A stretch of DNA of 64,000 bases. Source: Glaciihabitans sp. INWT7. Lineage in GTDB: Bacteria; Actinomycetota; Actinomycetes; Actinomycetales; Microbacteriaceae. The DNA lies in NCBI RefSeq assembly GCF_014217685.1, contig NZ_CP043653.1, forward strand, positions 2,856,419 to 2,920,418. Direction: 5' to 3'. Shown piece after piece: positions 15,893 through 53,446 of the stretch. Below the pieces are notes generated by a model that made no database searches, had not been told where the DNA came from, and saw nothing but the letters and a program-made list of their open reading frames with translations. The position numbers and the translations under genes are program-made. How positions within the stretch are numbered: the stretch's first letter is position 1; each line of letters opens with the position of its first letter.

Positions 15893-16198
15893 GTGGCCGC
15901 CGACGACTTCGTGTCCCGCGTCCTCGCGGTGGTCGAGGCCATCCCGAGTGGGCGGGTGATGACCTACGGTGATGTCGCCGCCGCCATCGGATCCCGAGCG
16001 GCCCGCGCCGTCGGCCAGACGATGGCCTACTACGGGTCGGATGTGACGTGGTGGCGAGTCATCCGGGCGAGCGGCCACCCGGCGGCAGATCACGAGTCAG
16101 CGGCCCTCGAACATTTCCGCGCCGAGGGAACGCCGTTGACCTGGTCGGTCTCCGGAGTCTTCCGCGTCGACCTCCCCGCAGCGCGCTGGTCGCCCTGA
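15893..16198 (+). CDS. Alkyltransferase-like protein (ATL, MGMT-related)
   Basis: About 101 residues, matching the DNA-binding half of O6-alkylguanine transferases: SGRVMTYGDVAAAIG, ARAVGQTM and WWRVIRASG. The Cys of the PCHRV active site is replaced by Trp (TWWRV), the mark of ATL proteins, which bind alkylated guanine and flag it for nucleotide excision repair. Start uncertain: GTG at 15893 is chosen; GTG at 15908 is possible. The frame is open further upstream but has no start codon there and encodes an Ser/Asp/Ala-rich stretch. No ribosome site is obvious. Confidence 0.75.
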   Translation: MAADDFVSRVLAVVEAIPSGRVMTYGDVAAAIGSRAARAVGQTMAYYGSDVTWWRVIRASGHPAADHESAALEHFRAEGTPLTWSVSGVFRVDLPAARWSP

Positions 16199-16903
16199 CT
16201 CGGGCCTTCCGTGCGCTGTTCGCGCCCCCAGCACTCCGCCGAACCGTCACAAACAGCCCTCCGCCGCACCCAGACGAGCCGATCCTGACGGATGACCCGG
16301 AGCATCTCTGCTCACCCTTCGCCGAACTGTCACCAAGTGCGCTCCAGCGTGCCCGTTCCATCGTTGGGTGACGGCGGATCGATCCACCTCTCTCGGCTCT
16401 GTACTCAGTTCGCTCAACCGTCGGATGACGGCTGATCGTCGCGGCCGCCCGACGCCCGGGGCCAAGACCTGCCGAACCGTCACAGACTGCCCGTGAATCT
16501 GCCTGCGCGAGCTCTTTGTGGCGGATGACACGGACAATCCCGGCACACCACCTCGCCGAACCGTCACAAGCTGCGCTCTAGCGCGCTCGCTCGAGCACTT
16601 CTTGACGGGAGACCGTCGCCCGGTCGGCTCAGGCGCCCGGGCTGAGCCACCGGCCGCCGTGCACCACCTCGCAGAACCGTCAGAAACTGCGCTCTAGCGC
16701 GCCCGCTCGAGCACTTCTTGACGGGTGACCGCCGCGCGCGGATTCACCCGGCGACCCCGCGGCCCGGCCCCGGCGCGCACGCGGGCCGGCCCCGCGCGCC
16801 CGCCCGGCGCCCCCGGCGCCCCGACTACGCCGTGGCCCGCCGCCTCCGCCCTTGGCGCTCGAGAGCGCCAAGGGCGGCATGCCGCAGCCCCGGCGACGCG
16901 TCC
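16199..16903. repeat. Gene-free stretch with repeat array A (51-bp element)
   Basis: No credible gene lies here. Five copies of a 51-bp element start at 16241, 16324, 16474, 16558 and 16674, all on the plus strand and without indels. Shared blocks in order are CCGTCACA, 4 bases, GCGCT, 15 bases, GAGCACTT, 3 bases, GACGG; the first, second and fourth copies are more diverged. Spacing is near 83, 150, 84 and 116 bp, and a weak partial copy may lie near 16400. Copies are preceded by C-rich CACCACCTCGCC-like sequence. The last two are almost identical to each other. The rest (16740-16840) is extremely GC-rich with no clear feature. Confidence 0.8.
16847..16876 (-). terminator. Terminator hairpin after the ABC exporter operon
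   Basis: A perfect 13-bp stem, CGCCCTTGGCGCT (16847-16859) with AGCGCCAAGGGCG (16864-16876), closed by a four-base loop. It begins 28 bases past the stop of the exporter gene on the minus strand. There is no T run, as is common in such genomes. Confidence 0.65.
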
Positions 16904-18718
16904 CTAGACCAGCGACTCCCGCCACGCGGCATGCAGCTTCGCGAAGCGACCGGTTCCGGCGATGAGGTCGCGCGGCGCACCATCCTCCACGATGATGCCG
17001 TGTTCCATCACGAGCACACGGTCGGCAATCGCCACAGTCGACAGGCGGTGGGCGATGATGATCGCGGTGCGGTCGGCGAGCAGGGTCTGCAGACCCTCCT
17101 GAACGAGGCGTTCTGAAGGGATGTCGAGCGACGCGGTAGCCTCATCGAGAATCAGCACGACGGGATCCGCGAGGAACGCCCGGGCAAACGAGATGAGCTG
17201 GCGCTGGCCGGCCGAGACACGACCGCCGCGCTTGTTCACATCGGTGTCGTAGCCATCCGGAAGCGACTGGATGAATTCGTGAGCTCCGACCGCCTTCGCG
17301 GCGGCACGTATCTCCTCCGGCGTCGCATCCGGCTTCCCGAGCGCGATGTTGTCGGCGACGGAGCCCGAGAAGAGGTACGCCTCCTGGGTGACCATCACGA
17401 TCGCCCGCCGCAGGTCCTTCGGGTGCAGCCGGCGAAGGTCGATGCCATCGAGCGACACGACGCCATCCGAGGGGTCGTAGAACCGGGAGATGAGCTTCGC
17501 CAGGGTCGACTTGCCCGCTCCCGTCGATCCCACGAGCGCGATGGTCTGCCCGGCAGGGATCTCGAGATCGAAGTGCGGGAGGATCACCCGGTCCGCCTTG
17601 TAGGCGAACTCGACCCCCTCGAATTTCAGCTCGCCCTCCGCCTTCCAGAGGTCGATCGGACGCGTCGGGTCCGGCACACTCGGCTGTTCCTCAAGCACCC
17701 CGGAGATCTTCTCGAGCGCAGCTGTCGCAGACTGGTAGGAGTTGTAGAACATCGCCATCTCCTGCGCCGGCGCGAAGAACGACCGCGTGTAGAGCAGCGC
17801 CGCGAGCAGCACACCGATGGCGAGTCCTCCGCCGGCGACGCGAAGCCCGCCGACGAGCAGCACCACGGCGAGCGCCACGTTGCCGATCAGCACGAGACCG
17901 GGATCGAGCACTCCGAAGAGCTTGATGGTGCGCAGGTTGGCGAGGCGGTAGTCCTCCACGAGTTCACCGAACTCGGTCTCGTTGCGCTTCTCCTTGCGGA
18001 ACGCCTTCACCGCCCGGATTCCGGTCATCGTCTCCACGAACTGCACGATGAGACGAGCGGATGCCGTGCGTGTCTCGCGGAACGCCTTCTGCGAGCGCAC
18101 CTGGAACCAGCGGATCAGGAAGCCGAGAGGCACGAGCGAACCGAACAGCACGACTCCGCTCACCCAATCGATCGAGAACAGTGCAACGGCGATGAACACC
18201 ATGTACAACCCACCCTGGATCAGCTGGTTGATGCCCGAATCGAGTAGCTCGCGGATGGCATCCAGGTCACTGGTCTGGCGCGCGATGATGCGGCCGGAGG
18301 TGTAGCTCTCGTGGAACTCGAGGCTCAGGCGCTGGGTGTGAAGGAAGACGCGCTTGCGCAGATCGATCAGGATGGCCTGGCTGATGCGCGCCGTGAGCAC
18401 GGTGTACCAGGCGATCAGAACGGCCCCGATCACCCCGGTGAAGAGGTAGGCACCGACCGCGAAGCCGAGCGGCACCCAGTCGTGCTTCACCAGGGCGGGC
18501 AGGCCAGTGTCGATCCCGAACGCGATCAGCGCGGGACCGGCGACCTGCGCGGCGGTCGACACGACCACCACGATGATCGTGAGGGTGACGCGGGCCCAGA
18601 GTGGGCGCAGCAGCGAGTTGAGCAGGCGAAGCGAGCGGTCCCGGATCTGCCGGCTCTCCGCCTTGCTGAAGTCGTTGCGCTCTTCGCCTTCGACACCGGT
18701 GATGTTGGCGGCGCTCAT
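16904..18718 (-). CDS. ABC exporter half-transporter, subunit B
   Basis: A 604-residue fusion of a six-helix type IV ABC exporter domain (about residues 35-335) and a nucleotide-binding domain (from about 365). Walker A is GSTGAGKST, the signature is VSAGQ instead of LSGGQ, and Walker B is VLILDEAT with an intact catalytic Glu. It overlaps its partner gene by 4 bp (ATGA). With the partner's degenerate Walker B it forms a heterodimer like TM287/288 or BmrCD, one active and one inactive ATP site. Multidrug or lipid export is typical of such pairs; the substrate is unknown. Confidence 0.92.
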
Positions 18719-20559
18719 GCGGTGACCTCCTGCGCTTCGCGCTTCTCTTCATCCTCGAGGCTCGAGATGACGAACCTGTAGTGATCGCTCGATTCGAGCA
18801 GTTCGCTGTGCCGACCGACGGCGGCGATGCGGCCGCGTTCGAGCAGTGCGACACGGTCGGCAAGCATGACGGTGGACGGGCGGTGCGCCACGATGAGTGC
18901 GGTCGTCGAGGCGAGCACCCGACGGAGCGCCGCCTCCACGAGTGCCTCGGTGTCCACATCCAGTGCGGAGAGGGGGTCGTCGAGCACGAGTACCTCCGGG
19001 CGCGCCGCGACCGCACGCGCGAGCGCGAGCCGCTGGCGCTGGCCACCGGAGAGGCTGAGCCCCTCCTCTCCCACCTTCGTGTCGATGCCGAAGGGCAGGT
19101 CGTAGACGAAGTCCGCCTGCGCGATGTCGAGGGCCTCGGCGAGGTCGGCATCCGATCCCTCCGGACGCCCGAGCATCACGTTGTCGCGCACGGATGCCGA
19201 GAACAGCGTGGCATCCTCGAACGCCATGGCGATGTGGGTGCGAAGGTCGAGTCGCCCGAGGTCCCGGATGTCGACGCCATCCAGCCGGATCGCCCCACCG
19301 GTCACGTCGTAGAGCCGCGTGGTGAGCGCGGTGAGAGTCGACTTGCCAGAGCCGGTGAGTCCTACGACCGCCATCGTCTCCCCGGGTTCGAGCTCGAGGT
19401 CGATGCCGTCGAGGAGGTCGTCGTACTGGCTCGGCGAATCGGAGTAGCGGAAGTGCACGTCGTCGAAGACCAGACGCCCCTCGGGTTTCGCGATCGTCTT
19501 CGGGTGCTCGGGGTCGACGATCGTGTTCTTCGCGTCCATCACCTCGAAGAAGCGATCGGCGGCGGTGCGCGTGTCGAAGGTCATCGACAGCAGAAAGCCG
19601 ATCGACTCCACAGGGAAGCGCAACACGGTGGCGGTGGCGAAGAACGCGACGAGCTGGCCGACCGAGATCTGGTCGGCAGCGGCGAGCCAGACGCCGCCGA
19701 GAAGACAGAGCCCGAACGTGACGTCCGGCACCATCAGCAGCCAGAGCCAGATGCCAGCGATCGCCTTGGCCTTCTCGATTTCGGTGCCGCGCAAGTCCTC
19801 CGCCTGGGAGGCGAAGTTCTTGAGCGCGTGGGGACCGCGGCCGAAGGCCTTGAGCACCCGGATGCCGTGCACCGACTCCTCGACGGCGGTCGCGAGGTCG
19901 CCGGCCTGGTCCTGGCTGCGGCGTGCGACCACCGAGTATTTCTGTTCAAAGAGGTAGCCGTAGATCCAGAGCGGAATCGAGCAGAGCACGAAGACGACAC
20001 CGAGGATCCAGCTGATGGAGAGCAGGAACACGAATCCGATGAGGATGGTGATCGTGTTGACGACGAGCAGCACGATGCCGAAGGAGATCCACCGGCGCAC
20101 CAGGTTGAGGTCGCTCACGGCGCGGGAGAGCAACTGGCCGCTCGCCCAGCGGTCGTGGAAGTTCACCGGCAGGTCCTGGAGCTGCTTGTAGAGCGAGTTG
20201 CGCAGATCCGCCTCGACGTGCGTGCCGGGCTGAAGCACGAACCAGCGGCGGAACCAGATCATCACCGCTTCGAGCACACCGAGCCCGAGCACGGCGGCCA
20301 CGGGCCACCAGATCTGGCTCGAGTCACCGTCTTGGAGCGGGCCGTCGACGAGGGCCCGCAGCACCTGAGGGATGAGCAGCGCGACGAGCGCCGCGATGAG
20401 TGCGGACACCATGCCGAGGTAGATGCGCGGCATCGCCGGCTTCGCCCACGGATAGATGCGCACGATCGAGGCGAAGGTGCCCTGGCGTCTCACGGCCGGG
20501 GCCTTCGCTATGGGGGCCTTCGCTGTCGGAAGCGAGCGTTTGCGGTTGTCTGCAGACAA
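18715..20559 (-). CDS. ABC exporter half-transporter, subunit A (degenerate ATP site)
   Basis: A 614-residue exporter subunit with a membrane domain (about residues 45-340) and an ATPase domain with Walker [10 protein letters not shown], an intact LSGGQ signature and Walker [10 protein letters not shown], where the catalytic Glu is Asp. In a head-to-tail dimer its Walker B faces the altered VSAGQ of subunit B, so both altered motifs fall into the same inactive site. The start is TTG at 20559 with AAGGAAA six bases ahead. A 26-codon leader ORF and about 160 bases of untranslated RNA precede it, which suggests expression controlled by translation of the leader. Confidence 0.92.
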
Positions 20560-20718
20560 AGGATTTCCTTGCGGATTGGATGGCTCGCACCGATGTGGTG
20601 GTGGCCGAAAACAAGAGAAGTGGGAGATGTGGAGGATGCCGTGCGGACGCGTCAGTACGGGCCGGGCGACGGACGGTGGAGCTGGCGGGGCAGGCGAGCT
20701 ACTCGGCGGCCCCGGGTG

Positions 20719-20799
20719 TTACCGGGTGCCGATGAAGGGGACGAACGGAAGGACGGCACCACGCGTCGCGCCTGCAGTTGCGAGAGATGTGATGGTCAT
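20719..20799 (-). CDS. 26-codon leader ORF upstream of the ABC exporter
   Basis: ATG at 20799 is preceded by a very strong GGAGG (five bases away) and encodes 26 residues, MTITSLATAGATRGAVLPFV followed by PFIGTR, ending in TAA. It lies between a good promoter and the exporter genes, with about 160 bases before the exporter start. A GC-rich hairpin (CCCGG/CCGGG) overlaps its stop. Leader peptides of this size upstream of drug exporters often sense ribosome-stalling antibiotics. There is no similarity I recognise, and the role is inferred. Confidence 0.55.
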   Translation of the reverse strand: MTITSLATAGATRGAVLPFVPFIGTR

Positions 20800-20878
20800 G
20801 GTGTCCTCCGGAACAGTTGTGTCTTCACCAGTGTGGCCAGGATTCGGCCCCTCGTAGGGGTCAACCGGACAGCCCTAC

Positions 20879-20908
20879 AGGATATGCCCACTACTTACCC
20901 ACATACAA
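20879..20908 (-). promoter_or_regulatory. Candidate promoter of the leader ORF and ABC exporter
   Basis: On the minus strand, TTGTAT (20903-20908) and TATCCT (20879-20884) are 18 bases apart. Transcription would begin near 20872, leaving about 70 bases before the leader ORF. The rest of the 20560-20965 gap holds only the leader and its downstream untranslated region. Confidence 0.45.
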
Positions 20909-20965
20909 CCTTTGTCACGAATTCGTCGCAGATTCCCTCTCCGAGGGGACCGACGACCGAGGAGT

Positions 20966-22165
20966 TCAGCGCACGCGCACCGAGAGGCAGGTGACGCAGC
21001 CCTCGAGCTTCTCGAACTCGCTGATGTCGGTGGTGAGCACGCGGTATCCGAGGTCCGCGATGAGCGCGGCGGACTTCGGCGCTGCGGATGACATCAGCAC
21101 CGTGTCATCCGCCAGCACCACAACGGCCACGCCTTCCGCTTCCGGCACCGCGAGGTAGCGGCCGAACACCGATGGGTCGTCGACGAGGGGCGGGTAGCCG
21201 ATGACCGTGCCATCCGGAAGCGCCGTCACAGCGCTCTTGAGGTGCAGGGCCTTGGTCACGGGCACCGCGACGACCGTGTAGCCGAGCGGCGTCACGAGGG
21301 ATCGCAGCTGGCGGATGCCCTCCGCATTCGTGCGGCCGCCGCGACCGACGAAGACGGTGCGATCCACCTTGAGCACGTCGCCGCCGTCGAGGGTGCCGGG
21401 CATCTCGATGCGGCGGATGCTGAGGCCGAGCGCCGCGACGGCGCGCTCCGCTTCGACGATCTCCCCGGCACGCGACTCGGCTCCGGGGCTGCCGATGATG
21501 GCCGTGCCGCCGAAGATCACCATGGTGTCCTCCACGAACACGGAATCGGGTTGGCCGGTCGCCACCGGCACCTCCACGACGTCCCACCCGGCGTTCGAGA
21601 GCAGTGCGACGTATTCGTCCCACTGGGAGTTGGCGAGCTCGAGGTCGACCGGCACTCGTTCTATGTGGGTGACCTGCCCGTCGGCGAGGCTGTCTGCAGG
21701 GGCACGAACGAGCACGATGCGACGGCTGGCGGCATCCGCCTGACTTCCCACCAGCAGTCGCCAGACCGCATATCCCGCGGAGACTGTGCCGATGATCGCC
21801 GCAAGCACGAAAGGGAGATTCGTACCGATGAGCTGGGTTGCGACAGTTTCGGTGACGGGAGAGGCGCTTCGGGCAACCGTGATCGCCGCCCCGGCGACGG
21901 CTCCGACCAGACCGGCGACGATGCCGCCGATGAGCCTGAGGTACCAATAGCGATAGAAGCCGACGAGAGCGAAGACGGTGAGGACGACGAAGACGATGAG
22001 GGTCGAGCCGAGGAAGAAGTCGAGCACCTGGCCGAGAGTGGAGATGCTGCCGCCGTAGAACAGCAGGGAGACGGCCACGAGCGAGATCAGGGACACGGTG
22101 AGGGCGGAGACGATCGCGCCCGTGAGTCGGCGGAGAAATGGCGAGCGGGCGCTGTCGACGGTCAT
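20966..22165 (-). CDS. Membrane-anchored dimethylargininase-like amidinohydrolase
   Basis: A 399-residue fusion. Residues 1 to about 140 hold four hydrophobic helices (roughly 14-38, 50-72, 77-97, 118-138). From about 148 to the end it is a guanidino-group-modifying enzyme of the DDAH (dimethylarginine dimethylaminohydrolase) type: VEDTMVIFGG with the Glu/Asp pair, GTLDGGDVL, catalytic His308 in ALHLKSAV and Cys393 in EGCVTCLSVRV. It should hydrolyse methylarginine or a similar guanidine to citrulline, on the cytoplasmic face if the topology has an even number of helices. Free-standing DDAH is about 250-280 residues, so the membrane half is extra. TAGGGT lies eight bases before the ATG. Confidence 0.82.
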   Translation of the reverse strand: MTVDSARSPFLRRLTGAIVSALTVSLISLVAVSLLFYGGSISTLGQVLDFFLGSTLIVFVVLTVFALVGFYRYWYLRLIGGIVAGLVGAVAGAAITVARSASPVTETVATQLIGTNLPFVLAAIIGTVSAGYAVWRLLVGSQADAASRRIVLVRAPADSLADGQVTHIERVPVDLELANSQWDEYVALLSNAGWDVVEVPVATGQPDSVFVEDTMVIFGGTAIIGSPGAESRAGEIVEAERAVAALGLSIRRIEMPGTLDGGDVLKVDRTVFVGRGGRTNAEGIRQLRSLVTPLGYTVVAVPVTKALHLKSAVTALPDGTVIGYPPLVDDPSVFGRYLAVPEAEGVAVVVLADDTVLMSSAAPKSAALIADLGYRVLTTDISEFEKLEGCVTCLSVRVR

Positions 22166-23098
22166 GGGTCCCGACCCTAGGGGATGTCGGCTATGGATCG
22201 GCTGTGCCGGGCCGGTGGGTGGGTACCGAGACGAGGTTGGCTCCGGTGGTGTCGATACGCTCGCAACTCGACCGGCATGGCTGTCGTGGGCGCCACCGCG
22301 GGTCACCTGTCGGCGCTCAGCCGGCGGCGCTCTGCCCGTGGCGGCGCGGGTCAGCTGGCGGCGCGCTGGCCCAGCCGACGCAAAGTGCTCTCAGGGACAG
22401 GGCTCAGCGCCGAATGTGACGGATGAGCGGGCCGGGCGACGCTGACGCCCGGGGGGGGTGCGATGCCCGCGGCGGGGGGGTCAGCTGGCGGCCCGCTGGC
22501 CAACCCGACGCGAAGTGCTCTCTGCCGCATGGCTCAAAGCCGAATATGACGGATGCGCGGGCCGGGCGACGCTGACGCCCGGGGCGGTGCGATGCCCGCG
22601 GCCCACGGCGCGGGCTCAGCCGAAGGCGCCGGCCCATCCGACGCAAAGCGTTCTCTGCGGCAGGGCTCAGCGCCGAATGTGGCTGTTGAGCGCCCGGGCG
22701 ACACCGCCCGCAGCGCTGCGCCTGCCGCCGTGCGGTTCGAACCGGCGCAAACTGCTCTCAGGGGACTAGCAGAGCGCCGAATGTGACGGATGCGCGGGCC
22801 GGGCGACGCTGACGCCCGCGGGCGGCGCGGCGCGGCACCGCCGGCGCTGGCGGCGCGGCGCTCGCCGCGGCGGCGGCACCGCCGGCGCGGCGCTCGCCGC
22901 GCGGGCCGAACCGGCGCGAAGCGCTCCCGAGGGGCCAGCTCAGCGCCGATTGTGACCGTTGGCGGGTAGGCCCGCCAATCGCCCACTACTCCCCCGGCCG
23001 ATCGCCTCGCGCGATCCGGCCGAGCGGACGCGAACTGCTCCCCGCGGCGGGCTTCAGCGCGGAGTTCGACGGCTGGGGCACCCGGCCGGGGCAGCGCC
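22166..23098. repeat. Gene-free stretch with repeat array B (51-bp element)
   Basis: More than 900 bases without a credible gene. Six copies of the 51-bp element occupy 22375-22425, 22505-22555, 22638-22688, 22743-22793, 22911-22961 and 23025-23075, all on the minus strand and all exactly 51 bp. Their minus-strand blocks CCGTCACA, GCGCT and GAGCACTT are in the same register as in array A. Between copies is very GC-rich sequence with small inverted repeats such as GGGCGACGCTGACGCCC. At 22251-22273 is a fragment resembling a family-wide palindrome (GTCGATACGCTCGC then CTCGACC). Open frames here do not keep one frame across copies, so it is not coding. Confidence 0.8.
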
Positions 23099-24703
23099 CT
23101 AGTGGTAGAAGTGACGCTCGGCCGTGAAGTACATGGTGACTCCGGCCGCCTTCGCTGCCTCGATCACATCGGCGTCGCGGATCGACCCACCGGGCTGCAC
23201 CACCGCGCGCACGTCCGCATCGAGCAGGATCTGCAGGCCGTCGGCGAACGGGAAGAAGGCGTCGGATGCCGCAACCGATCCGGCCGCGCGATCGCCCGCT
23301 CGCGATACCGCGAGCCGGCAGGAGTCCACGCGGTTGACCTGGCCCATACCGACGCCGACCGAGGCGCCCTCATCGGCCAGCAGGATCGCGTTGGACTTGA
23401 CCGCGCGCACCGCACGCCAGGCGAATTCCAGGTCGGCGCGGGTGGCGTCATCCGCCTCTTCACCGGAGACGAGGGTCCAGCCGTCGCTGGAGAATTCGTC
23501 GAAGACATCGGGCTGTTGCACCAGGAGCCCCCCGCTGATCTGTTTGAACTCGAGGGCTTCGCGCGTGTAGCCCTCCGGCAGCTTGAGAAGCCGGAGGTTC
23601 TTCTTGGTCTGCAGGAGTTCGAGGGCCTCCGGGTCGAAGTCGGGAGCGATCACCACCTCGGTGAAGATGTCCTTCACTGTGCGGGCCATCTCTATGCTGA
23701 CGGGGCGGTTCGCCGCGATCACCCCGCCGTAGGCCGAGACCGGATCGCAGTCGTGGGCGCGCTGGTGCGCCGAGGCGATGGGATCGCCGGCCCCACGCGC
23801 GACCGCGATGCCGCAGGGCTGGGCATGCTTGATGATGGCCACGGCAGGCTCGCGGAAGTCGTAGGCGGTGCGGAGCGCGGCATCCGCGTCCACGTAGTTG
23901 TTGTACGACATCTCCTTGCCGCCGAGCTGGGTCGCCTGCGCGATTCCCGCGCCGTGCTCGGTGACGTAGAGCGAGGCGTCCTGGTGCGAATTCTCGCCGT
24001 AGCGCAGAACGTTCTTGAGCGACGCGGTCACGCTGAAGGTGTGGGCTTCCTCGCGCGGATGCTCCGCCCGGATCCCCACGTTCGCGGCGAAGAACTCGGC
24101 CACAGCGGTGTCGTACGCAGCGGTGTGCGCGAAAGCCTCACCCGCGAGACGCTGTCGCTGAGCGAGAGTAGTGCCGCCAAGGGTCACGGACTTGATCACC
24201 TGGGCGTAGCTGTCGGGCGACACGACGATCGCGACGTTGGCGTGGTTCTTGGCCGCCGCGCGCACCATGGCCGGTCCGCCGATGTCGATCTGCTCGATCG
24301 CATCGTCGCCGACGATCCCCGAGGCGATGGTCTCGACGAAGGGGTAGAGGTTCACGACGACGAGCTCGAAGGGCCGGATGTCGAGCTCGGCGAGCTGCGC
24401 CTCATGGCTCGCGAGCCGCAGGTCCGCCAGGATGCCGGCATGGATGGCGGGATGCAGGGTCTTCACCCTCCCATCGAGGGTCTCCTGGAATCCGGTGACG
24501 CTCGCGACCTCGGTGACGGGGTGCCCGGCATCCGCGATCGTCTTCGCGGTCGAGCCGGTGGAGACGATCTCGACCCCCGCGCCCGCGAGGGCTGCGGCAA
24601 GCTCGAGGAGACCGGTCTTGTCGCTCACGGAGATGAGGGCGCGGGCGATCGGGATGGCATCCCGCGCGCGGTAGTCGGAGGGGTCGTGGGTCGGTGCGCT
24701 CAT
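23099..24703 (-). CDS. purH: Bifunctional AICAR transformylase / IMP cyclohydrolase
   Basis: A 534-residue enzyme for the last two steps of IMP synthesis. The N-terminal cyclohydrolase (MGS-like) domain shows [15 protein letters not shown] and STGSTAKTI; the C-terminal transformylase shows [34 protein letters not shown] and FFPFADGLQ. Full length. It overlaps purN by 4 bp (ATGA) and ends at array B. Cytoplasmic; uses 10-formyl-THF. Confidence 0.97.
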
Positions 24704-52483: not shown

Positions 52484-53446
52484 TCACACATCCCTCCACG
52501 ACGTCATAGCCCCGCCGCGAGGGACACCGGCCTGCAGCAGCATCCGCTCGAGTCGCACAGGAGCTTCCACATGTTCCGTGAGGATGCGGGTCACCCCGAC
52601 CTCCAGTGCGCGCAACCTGTCCTCCCGCTTCTTCTCCCTCCAGACGACATCTCCGGGGTCGCCCCTGGTGAATTCGTCCCTGGTGTACTTGGACTTACCG
52701 TCGAACTCCGCAGCCCTGCGAACCGAGCGCCAGAAGAAGTCGGGCTCGATCCTTCCTTGGGCGTCGACGAATTCGACCTGCAACTCAGGAGCGTCGAATC
52801 CCAGCAGATGGATGACGGAACGCGCCGTCGACTCCCCGAAAGAGTCCGACAGGCTGGTCGAGAATCCGATGCACCGCTGCAGGTGACGAATTCCGAATCG
52901 CGGATGGAGCCGATCCAGTTCCTCGACGAGCGCGGCCTTCTCGAGTGCCCCGGATCGCTTCCTCCACAGCACCCAGTCCAAAGAACCGATCGCTTTGGTA
53001 AAGCTGTGAGTGCGAGCGACATCGATTGCGGTCCGCTCGATCGATGTCACCGGGATTCCGTCCACCACCTGGATGGATGCCGTCCGGAATCCGCTTGCGG
53101 TCTTGCGCACTCCCGGCTCTGAGCGGCCGCCGCCTCTCCATTCATCGAGGATCGTGACCTCTGTCGGCCAGGCCTCATCGATGGGCATCCCCCAGACGGC
53201 TGCGGCAGAGACACCGGCCAAGGCAGCGGGCCGTTGCACGGCCGCCAGGGCAGCCCGCGCTCGGAGAAGGTGTCGTTCCCGTGTGTCAGCAGCGTCCCAG
53301 ACTGTCCGGGTGACGAACGCTCCACGGCGGAGTTTCACGAGTATCCCACGCTCGGCGTCGCGGCGAAGAGCTCTCGAATCGCCGAGCACGTCCCGAAGTT
53401 GGGTGAAGAGAATCAGTCCGTTGCGGCCGAGAGCGTCGTAGTCCAT
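52484..53446 (-). CDS. AbiEi-like protein with a nuclease-type C-terminus
   Basis: A 320-residue protein. The N-terminal part has a helix-turn-helix-like region and the layout of AbiEi antitoxin-type proteins found widely in Microbacteriaceae (RRDAERGILVKLRRGAFV, then ALAGVSAAAVWGMP). The C-terminal half carries IEPDFFW and EFDGKSKYTR, which fits a PD-(D/E)xK-like fold (DUF559 type). No AbiEii nucleotidyltransferase lies next to it, so it is an orphan and its role is unknown. It is inserted between guaB and guaB3, on the same strand. ATG at 53446 chosen over a longer frame by similarity of layout; no clear ribosome site. Confidence 0.65.
   Translation of the reverse strand: MDYDALGRNGLILFTQLRDVLGDSRALRRDAERGILVKLRRGAFVTRTVWDAADTRERHLLRARAALAAVQRPAALAGVSAAAVWGMPIDEAWPTEVTILDEWRGGGRSEPGVRKTASGFRTASIQVVDGIPVTSIERTAIDVARTHSFTKAIGSLDWVLWRKRSGALEKAALVEELDRLHPRFGIRHLQRCIGFSTSLSDSFGESTARSVIHLLGFDAPELQVEFVDAQGRIEPDFFWRSVRRAAEFDGKSKYTRDEFTRGDPGDVVWREKKREDRLRALEVGVTRILTEHVEAPVRLERMLLQAGVPRGGAMTSWRDV

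Follow-up and report, generated by a model that had tools for sequence, protein, structure and literature searches.

Repeats of Glaciihabitans sp. INWT7 as probable degenerate members of a nuclease-associated palindrome family in Microbacteriaceae

REPtrons, as set out in PMC3733652, combine GTAG repetitive extragenic palindromes (REPs), which number in the tens and lie mainly downstream of coding regions, with a gene for a RAYT; the species-specific repeats flank the enzyme gene, and several enzyme genes per genome go with differing repeats. These traits recur in a repeat family described here from Glaciihabitans sp. INWT7, which an initial annotation had noticed as a 51-bp element in a stretch of 64,000 nucleotides (assembly GCF_014217685.1, contig NZ_CP043653.1, positions 2,856,419 to 2,920,418; hereafter the window). 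The enzyme, however, is a DUF559-like nuclease and not a Y1 tyrosine transposase, and the element comprises about 60 bp with two half-sites at constant spacing, whereas a REP measures 20-40 bp and carries an unpaired GTAG tag (PMC3733652). The main text of that paper does not contain the word Actinobacteria; the present element is found in Actinomycetota. Because of the different enzyme, and because no Y1 transposase was found in the genomes of INWT7 or Lacisediminihabitans profunda, we do not file the element as a REPtron member.

Three further systems bear comparison. Firstly, the CGTC REPs also have no known dedicated transposase (PMC3733652), and CGTC is part of the core of our element too. 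These REPs have stems of 8-9 bp, loops of 4-5 bp and mostly a CCA tail, and are reported there from five phyla, Actinomycetota not included; their tag is unpaired, whereas the CGTC of our element is base-paired in a far longer arm. Secondly, the uptake-sequence dyads that act as terminators in Neisseria and Pasteurellaceae consist of a genome-specific word in inverted pairs at the ends of genes, but in PMC1852404 the word generally occurs 1,000 times or more, whereas here 27 of 31 half-site matches fall at paired sites. Thirdly, the unexplained spaced palindromes of Bradyrhizobium japonicum and Acidovorax ebreus, among others, share the constant spacing and the position near 3’ ends or often between convergent genes, but no link to a nuclease is stated in the portion of PMC5217627 available. 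No description of DUF559-type genes with private palindromes, and no settled role for this nuclease type, was found in the literature searched, the coverage of which was partial and took in few subscription papers. The layout, an enzyme gene between its repeats together with solo copies at gene ends, suggests a little-explored enzyme-repeat partnership. We consider it probable, though well short of certain, that the 51-bp element represents a local, degenerate version of a palindromic site of ~60 bp, belonging to a REPtron-like pair of nuclease and repeat that lacks a RAYT.

In an alignment of 45 copies, the element is an inverted repeat with the consensus AACCGTCACAAACnGC ... GAGCAGTTTGTGACGG and a poorly conserved middle; it is 48 bp long, or about 62 bp with its wings (range 48-64 bp). 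Half-sites of the CCGTCRnnAAnnGC type face each other, usually 20 bp apart, and the window copies have in common the dyad CCGTCA..AA..GC with its reverse complement at that distance. Due to this inverted symmetry, missed by the initial annotation, the “plus” and “minus” strands assigned to the copies are largely a matter of labelling. Within a genome the spacing is constant; in INWT7 it is 20 in 63 cases, the next commonest value accounting for 4. A spacing of 20 also prevails in L. profunda (G007), H. gentiana (G023) and H. solani, while spacings of 21 (six genomes), 22 (two sites of G142) and 31, about one helical turn beyond the usual (four sites of G082), were seen elsewhere, the lists of these other genomes including chance matches at other distances. 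The half-site pattern matched 31 times in the INWT7 genome against 2 for the reversed control. Isolated half-sites were considered as marks of a larger transposon and rejected, since only 4 of the 31 lie away from paired sites, near the control value.

The eleven repeats belong to a chromosome-wide palindrome family of many soil actinobacteria. A profile hidden Markov model (HMM), R1, gave 118 matches on both strands of the 3.48-Mb INWT7 genome at E<=0.1 (150 of 4273 candidates scored), and the fetched stretches hold about 76 sites, grouped in 19 clusters. This figure takes in weak sites of as little as 18 bits, counts each site on one strand and omits three further weak places (17.0 to 17.5 bits). 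The search of relatives proposed in the initial annotation extended the family well beyond this strain: with model R2, and no more than 26 candidates scored in any one genome, 59 of 199 Microbacteriaceae genomes, from 39 of 85 genera, proved to carry the element. R2 also found it in all 16 Herbiconiux genomes. At class level 16 of 197 genomes were positive, three of them Microbacteriaceae and several with one or two weak matches. A strict pattern run over GTDB species genomes returned 51 stretches, 45 from Microbacteriaceae, with Herbiconiux, L. profunda, Agreia, Agromyces and Frigoribacterium among them; the family of each named record is the one to which we take its genus to belong. One genome of another actinobacterial family, G234 (L205-L215), contains many near-perfect copies with arms CGCCCAACCGTCTC, the match length pointing to a spacing of 22 in 10 of the 11 copies read. 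The arms of the g106 genomes may resemble mycobacterial terminator motifs. Several gaps are occupied by elements in two or more species, in some cases in Herbiconiux as well as Lacisediminihabitans, and the arms there have been rewritten; in one orthologous gap a C/G pair has become A/T while the loop is identical. Thus, at least these copies are old residents.

One such shared gap led to a nuclease gene, next to dapD, that the element flanks left and right in G023, H. solani and G419 (dapD and gltA, below, are what we take these genes to be from their protein sequences, the names not being database-assigned). Away from dapD, the nuclease has the element on both sides in G218 and in Frigoribacterium faeni (G192), and the INWT7 genome has its own gene at C1:3164991-3165878, an open frame with elements on both sides (L099). 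We searched for palindromes de novo within 500 bp of a gene and compared the left arm with the right, requiring a similarity of at least 14. Of 50 nuclease genes, 20 passed, as against 1 of 437 controls (p about 4e-20), and at a similarity of at least 18 the counts were 16 and 0. The 50 genes, not a random draw, comprise the 30 best one-per-genome loci and 20 picked down the match list; the controls came from the window and, for the most part, from element-bearing stretches, and 42 of them repeat a gene fetched twice, leaving 395 distinct. The sole passing control is a Frigoribacterium gene situated between two members of the same element family. The INWT7 nuclease gene fails, because no palindrome there reaches the threshold.

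The arms differ between nucleases, also where these share a genome (G090, G019 and the second locus of INWT7), and several other nucleases have arms that lack CGTC. When used as a pattern, the nuclease-side arm of G019 matched 51 times forward and 52 times reverse in G019 (103 half-site matches) and 0 to 2 times in six other genomes; at three mismatches there were 11 matches in H. gentiana (G023), which may hold a related family. Spacing was identical in all 20 fetched G019 pairs, partly by choice, as these were picked from pairs already visible. A match to a second palindrome family in H. gentiana, at C11:24999-25018, adjoins the sole Y1 transposase match of that genome (C11:24558-24878).

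The dapD locus allowed arms and nuclease to be compared between species. Of 16 Herbiconiux genomes, 13 carry the nuclease no more than 1.5 kb downstream of dapD, with gltA also in reach in 11; around the dapD of two others (G411 and G420), both nuclease and gltA are missing within reach. Palindromes stand on both sides of the nuclease in ten of the 13 and on one side in three. The left and right arms resemble each other at scores of 18 to 25 in nine genomes and 13 in G180, and they vary by species. Arm identity followed nuclease identity (Mantel r 0.53, p 0.0002; partial correlation 0.54) but showed no relation to dapD identity (r -0.003, p 0.50). One arm per species, chosen by eye on one side, served as input.

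The putative nuclease has about 300 residues, with a DUF559/MTES_1575 match of the PD-(D/E)XK type at its C-terminus and, in eight aligned members, an invariant E, D and E in the C-terminal half. In the AlphaFold prediction, made with four sequences, only that half was usable (mean pLDDT 77.7 for that part alone). Nucleases of this type were found in 112 of 150 Microbacteriaceae genomes (up to 15 matches scored per genome). A second INWT7 locus, C1:1160822-1161706, contains one in-frame stop, and its flanks carry a different matched palindrome pair, CGAGTTGCA... (L348 1156-1213 and 2198-2255). Within the window, 52484-53269 gives a weak nuclease-like match of 42 bits with no palindrome scoring at least 14 nearby.

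Several observations weigh against a pairing of nuclease and palindrome. The strict test was failed by 30 of the 50 nuclease genes, and outside Microbacteriaceae by 26 of 29, only 3 passing there. The G090 arm occurs at no more than three paired sites, of which two adjoin the nuclease, and in G119 and G423 the nuclease-side arm is unlike the dispersed copies of the same genome. No insertion with well-defined ends was seen: the sole empty site, in G413, is a 39-bp dapD-gltA gap without nuclease gene or element, which has no clear boundaries and could be a deletion. The L. profunda copies fold well although the nuclease at the shared locus is split over two overlapping frames (L068 12228-13162) and looks broken or mis-assembled. 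The domain assignment is itself weak: 6 of 19 scanned sequences, a set with one gene twice and three as partial frames, reached the DUF559 cut-off and none the MTES_1575 cut-off, and two of eight members showed a weak AbiEi match at the N-terminus. PvuRts1I and Vsr, both of the PD-(D/E)XK type, were among the Foldseek structural neighbours but not significantly, and a sequence search of the PDB gave only weak, non-significant nuclease matches.

That AbiEi similarity, together with half-sites at constant spacing, is what one would expect if the palindromes were operators, by which a protein regulates its own gene and whose dispersed copies form a regulon. The positions of the sites make this improbable. 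Copies are scattered over intergenic gaps and almost always lie 3’ of a gene; among 47 oriented sites or clusters in three genomes, counted by hand and leaving aside two sites within called genes and another two at contig ends, 25 lay in convergent, 21 in co-directional and 1 in divergent gaps, compared with 23, 53 and 30 background gaps (p 6e-5 for the divergent deficit and p 3e-4 for the convergent excess). The background was drawn from the window and the element-bearing stretches, element gaps included, with genes called in this analysis. The mapping relative to genes that the initial annotation had suggested placed the sites mainly 3’ of genes; the avoidance of divergent gaps, and a flanking copy directly 3’ of the nuclease gene, speak against operators.

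The same distribution is in keeping with plain bidirectional intrinsic terminators, alike by common descent or local copying and with nuclease neighbours by coincidence. Moreover, all eleven copies chosen from relatives, picked from the pattern-selected set, fold strongly (z -6 to -12), and many of the 73 pattern-selected copies in alignment A3, which leaves out the INWT7 genome, consist by eye of an A-run, a GC stem and a T-run. As a full explanation we nevertheless reject termination and rate it unlikely, because the CCGTC wing lies beyond the T-run and ranks with the best-conserved parts of the element in A3. In addition, RNA folding of ten window copies (all but 16324) gave z from +1.4 to -2.6, with 8 above -2 and 2 below; a separate perfect hairpin stands between the ABC transporter gene and the first array; and arms that go with the nuclease are left unexplained.

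Pairing is supported across species. In A3, 81.9% of cells pair compared with 70.3% when shuffled, and the covariation score was reached by none of 500 shuffles, the arms changing in step. Some covariation was also seen at variable positions in H. solani, H. gentiana (G023) and VKM Ac-1786, while within the INWT7 genome and within L. profunda (G007) there was essentially none. The covariation check proposed in the initial annotation was positive between species and essentially negative within the genome that prompted it, and an RNA hairpin under selection in INWT7 was dropped as a candidate. Given this and the weak folding, structure is not what the window copies keep. The initial annotation had proposed selection on structure or on a binding protein; of these, the first fails for the window copies, and constant spacing in diverged sequence points to selection on a recognised site. 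Core identity agrees with the latter, being 0.79-0.93 against 0.45-0.74 for non-core and 0.48-0.75 for spacer in five of the six array sets of INWT7, a comparison that carries some ascertainment bias.

The sixth array set, L106, shows no such excess (core 0.63, non-core 0.61, spacer 0.67) and, like the weak pairing and the ~93-bp tandem units of the INWT7 genome, fits neutral repeats, i.e. old palindromes multiplied by slippage and now decaying. We think it a minor possibility, about on a par with terminators, since the core is better kept in the other five sets, the spacing is retained and the arms change together across species. The idea that the INWT7 hairpins decayed because its nuclease had decayed was dropped, the frame being open over the whole match.

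Finally, tens of extragenic palindromes at gene ends, beside an enzyme gene, are REPtron features (PMC3733652) and would suit classical REP elements moved by a RAYT. This is very improbable. The INWT7 and L. profunda genomes have no Y1_Tnp (PF01797) match, which led us to reject a RAYT link in the former; only 2 of 40 genomes have one, G023 included; the element is ~60 bp and not 20-40 bp; and the consensus of A1 or A3, read by eye, has no conserved GTAG.

In the window itself, the element is present at all eleven places claimed. Ten starts stand and the one given as 22743 moves by 1, the copy being in register at 22742-22792; with this mended the copies align over 51 bases without a gap. The exact blocks that had been described as keeping a fixed spacing fit, by eye, only some copies. 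Chance similarity was checked with an HMM whose 67 training copies all lie elsewhere in the genomes than in the window, though partly dependent on it in that they were collected via R1, 9 of whose 45 training copies are from the window. This HMM recovered 10 of the 11 copies (36.4 to 12.8 bits) above the top score among twenty dinucleotide-shuffled windows (10.4 bits). It missed the copy at 23025, which R1 finds at E 2e-4; the copy at 16324 is weak under R1 (E 0.04).

Table 1. Element copies in the window, and nuclease loci with elements on both sides.
Feature	Position or locus	Strand	Evidence
Array 1, copy 1	16241..16291	+	R1 61.3 bits; outside-trained HMM match
Array 1, copy 2 (weak)	16324..16374	+	R1 18.3 bits; outside-trained HMM 12.8 bits
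Array 1, copy 3	16474..16524	+	R1 50.1 bits; outside-trained HMM match
Array 1, copy 4	16558..16608	+	R1 56.3 bits; outside-trained HMM match
Array 1, copy 5	16674..16724	+	R1 58.3 bits; outside-trained HMM match
Array 2, copy 1	22375..22425	-	R1 55.7 bits; outside-trained HMM match
Array 2, copy 2	22505..22555	-	R1 45.7 bits; outside-trained HMM match
Array 2, copy 3	22638..22688	-	R1 47.9 bits; outside-trained HMM match
Array 2, copy 4	22742..22792	-	R1 56.5 bits; outside-trained HMM match
Array 2, copy 5	22911..22961	-	R1 55.2 bits; outside-trained HMM match
Array 2, copy 6 (weak)	23025..23075	-	R1 26.3 bits; outside-trained HMM no match
Nuclease loci with elements on both sides	L088, L128, L228, L183, L188, L099 (INWT7)		

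Array 1 lies between convergent genes with 3’ ends at 16198 (DNA_binding_1 match) and 16904 (ABC transporter). The perfect hairpin at 16846-16877, directly 3’ of the ABC transporter gene and between it and the array, has the appearance of an ordinary terminator. The genes on either side of array 2 are those at 23099-24703 (minus strand; AICARFT/IMPCHase match, i.e. purH) and 20966-22165 (minus strand). At 22231-22280, a TCGATACGC stretch resembles by eye part of the GGCGTATCGAGACC palindrome adjoining the nuclease of G072 (L167 1888-1934), possibly another repeat family. Rfam gave no match in the window at the gathering score.

Returning to the interpretation we favour, a nuclease paired with its own palindrome, recognition of the site and spreading of the palindrome by the nuclease are inferred. 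The enzyme, probably as a dimer, would read the two half-sites as a duplex dyad or as an extruded hairpin and would nick or cut there; repair or copying would then spread the palindrome and maintain the similarity of copies within a genome. Copies standing alone 3’ of genes would be tolerated, and those that still fold may act as two-way transcription terminators, an activity that would probably be a by-product. In INWT7, the copies would have multiplied as tandem arrays, many losing their pairing while the half-sites and their spacing were kept. A broader proposal is more tentative, its chances falling a little short of even: that Actinomycetota harbour a nuclease-palindrome class unrelated to RAYT, in which each DUF559-like nuclease recognises, spreads and homogenises a private ~60-bp palindrome, with specificity and repeat co-evolving fast, species by species, at the same locus.

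If the pairing is real, many nuclease genes carry a candidate target site on either side, so that their function would be directly testable. It would also add another, independent way in which dispersed extragenic palindromes can arise, of interest for repeats without a known enzyme, and the matched variants of nuclease and site would form a natural series in which to study how specificity changes.

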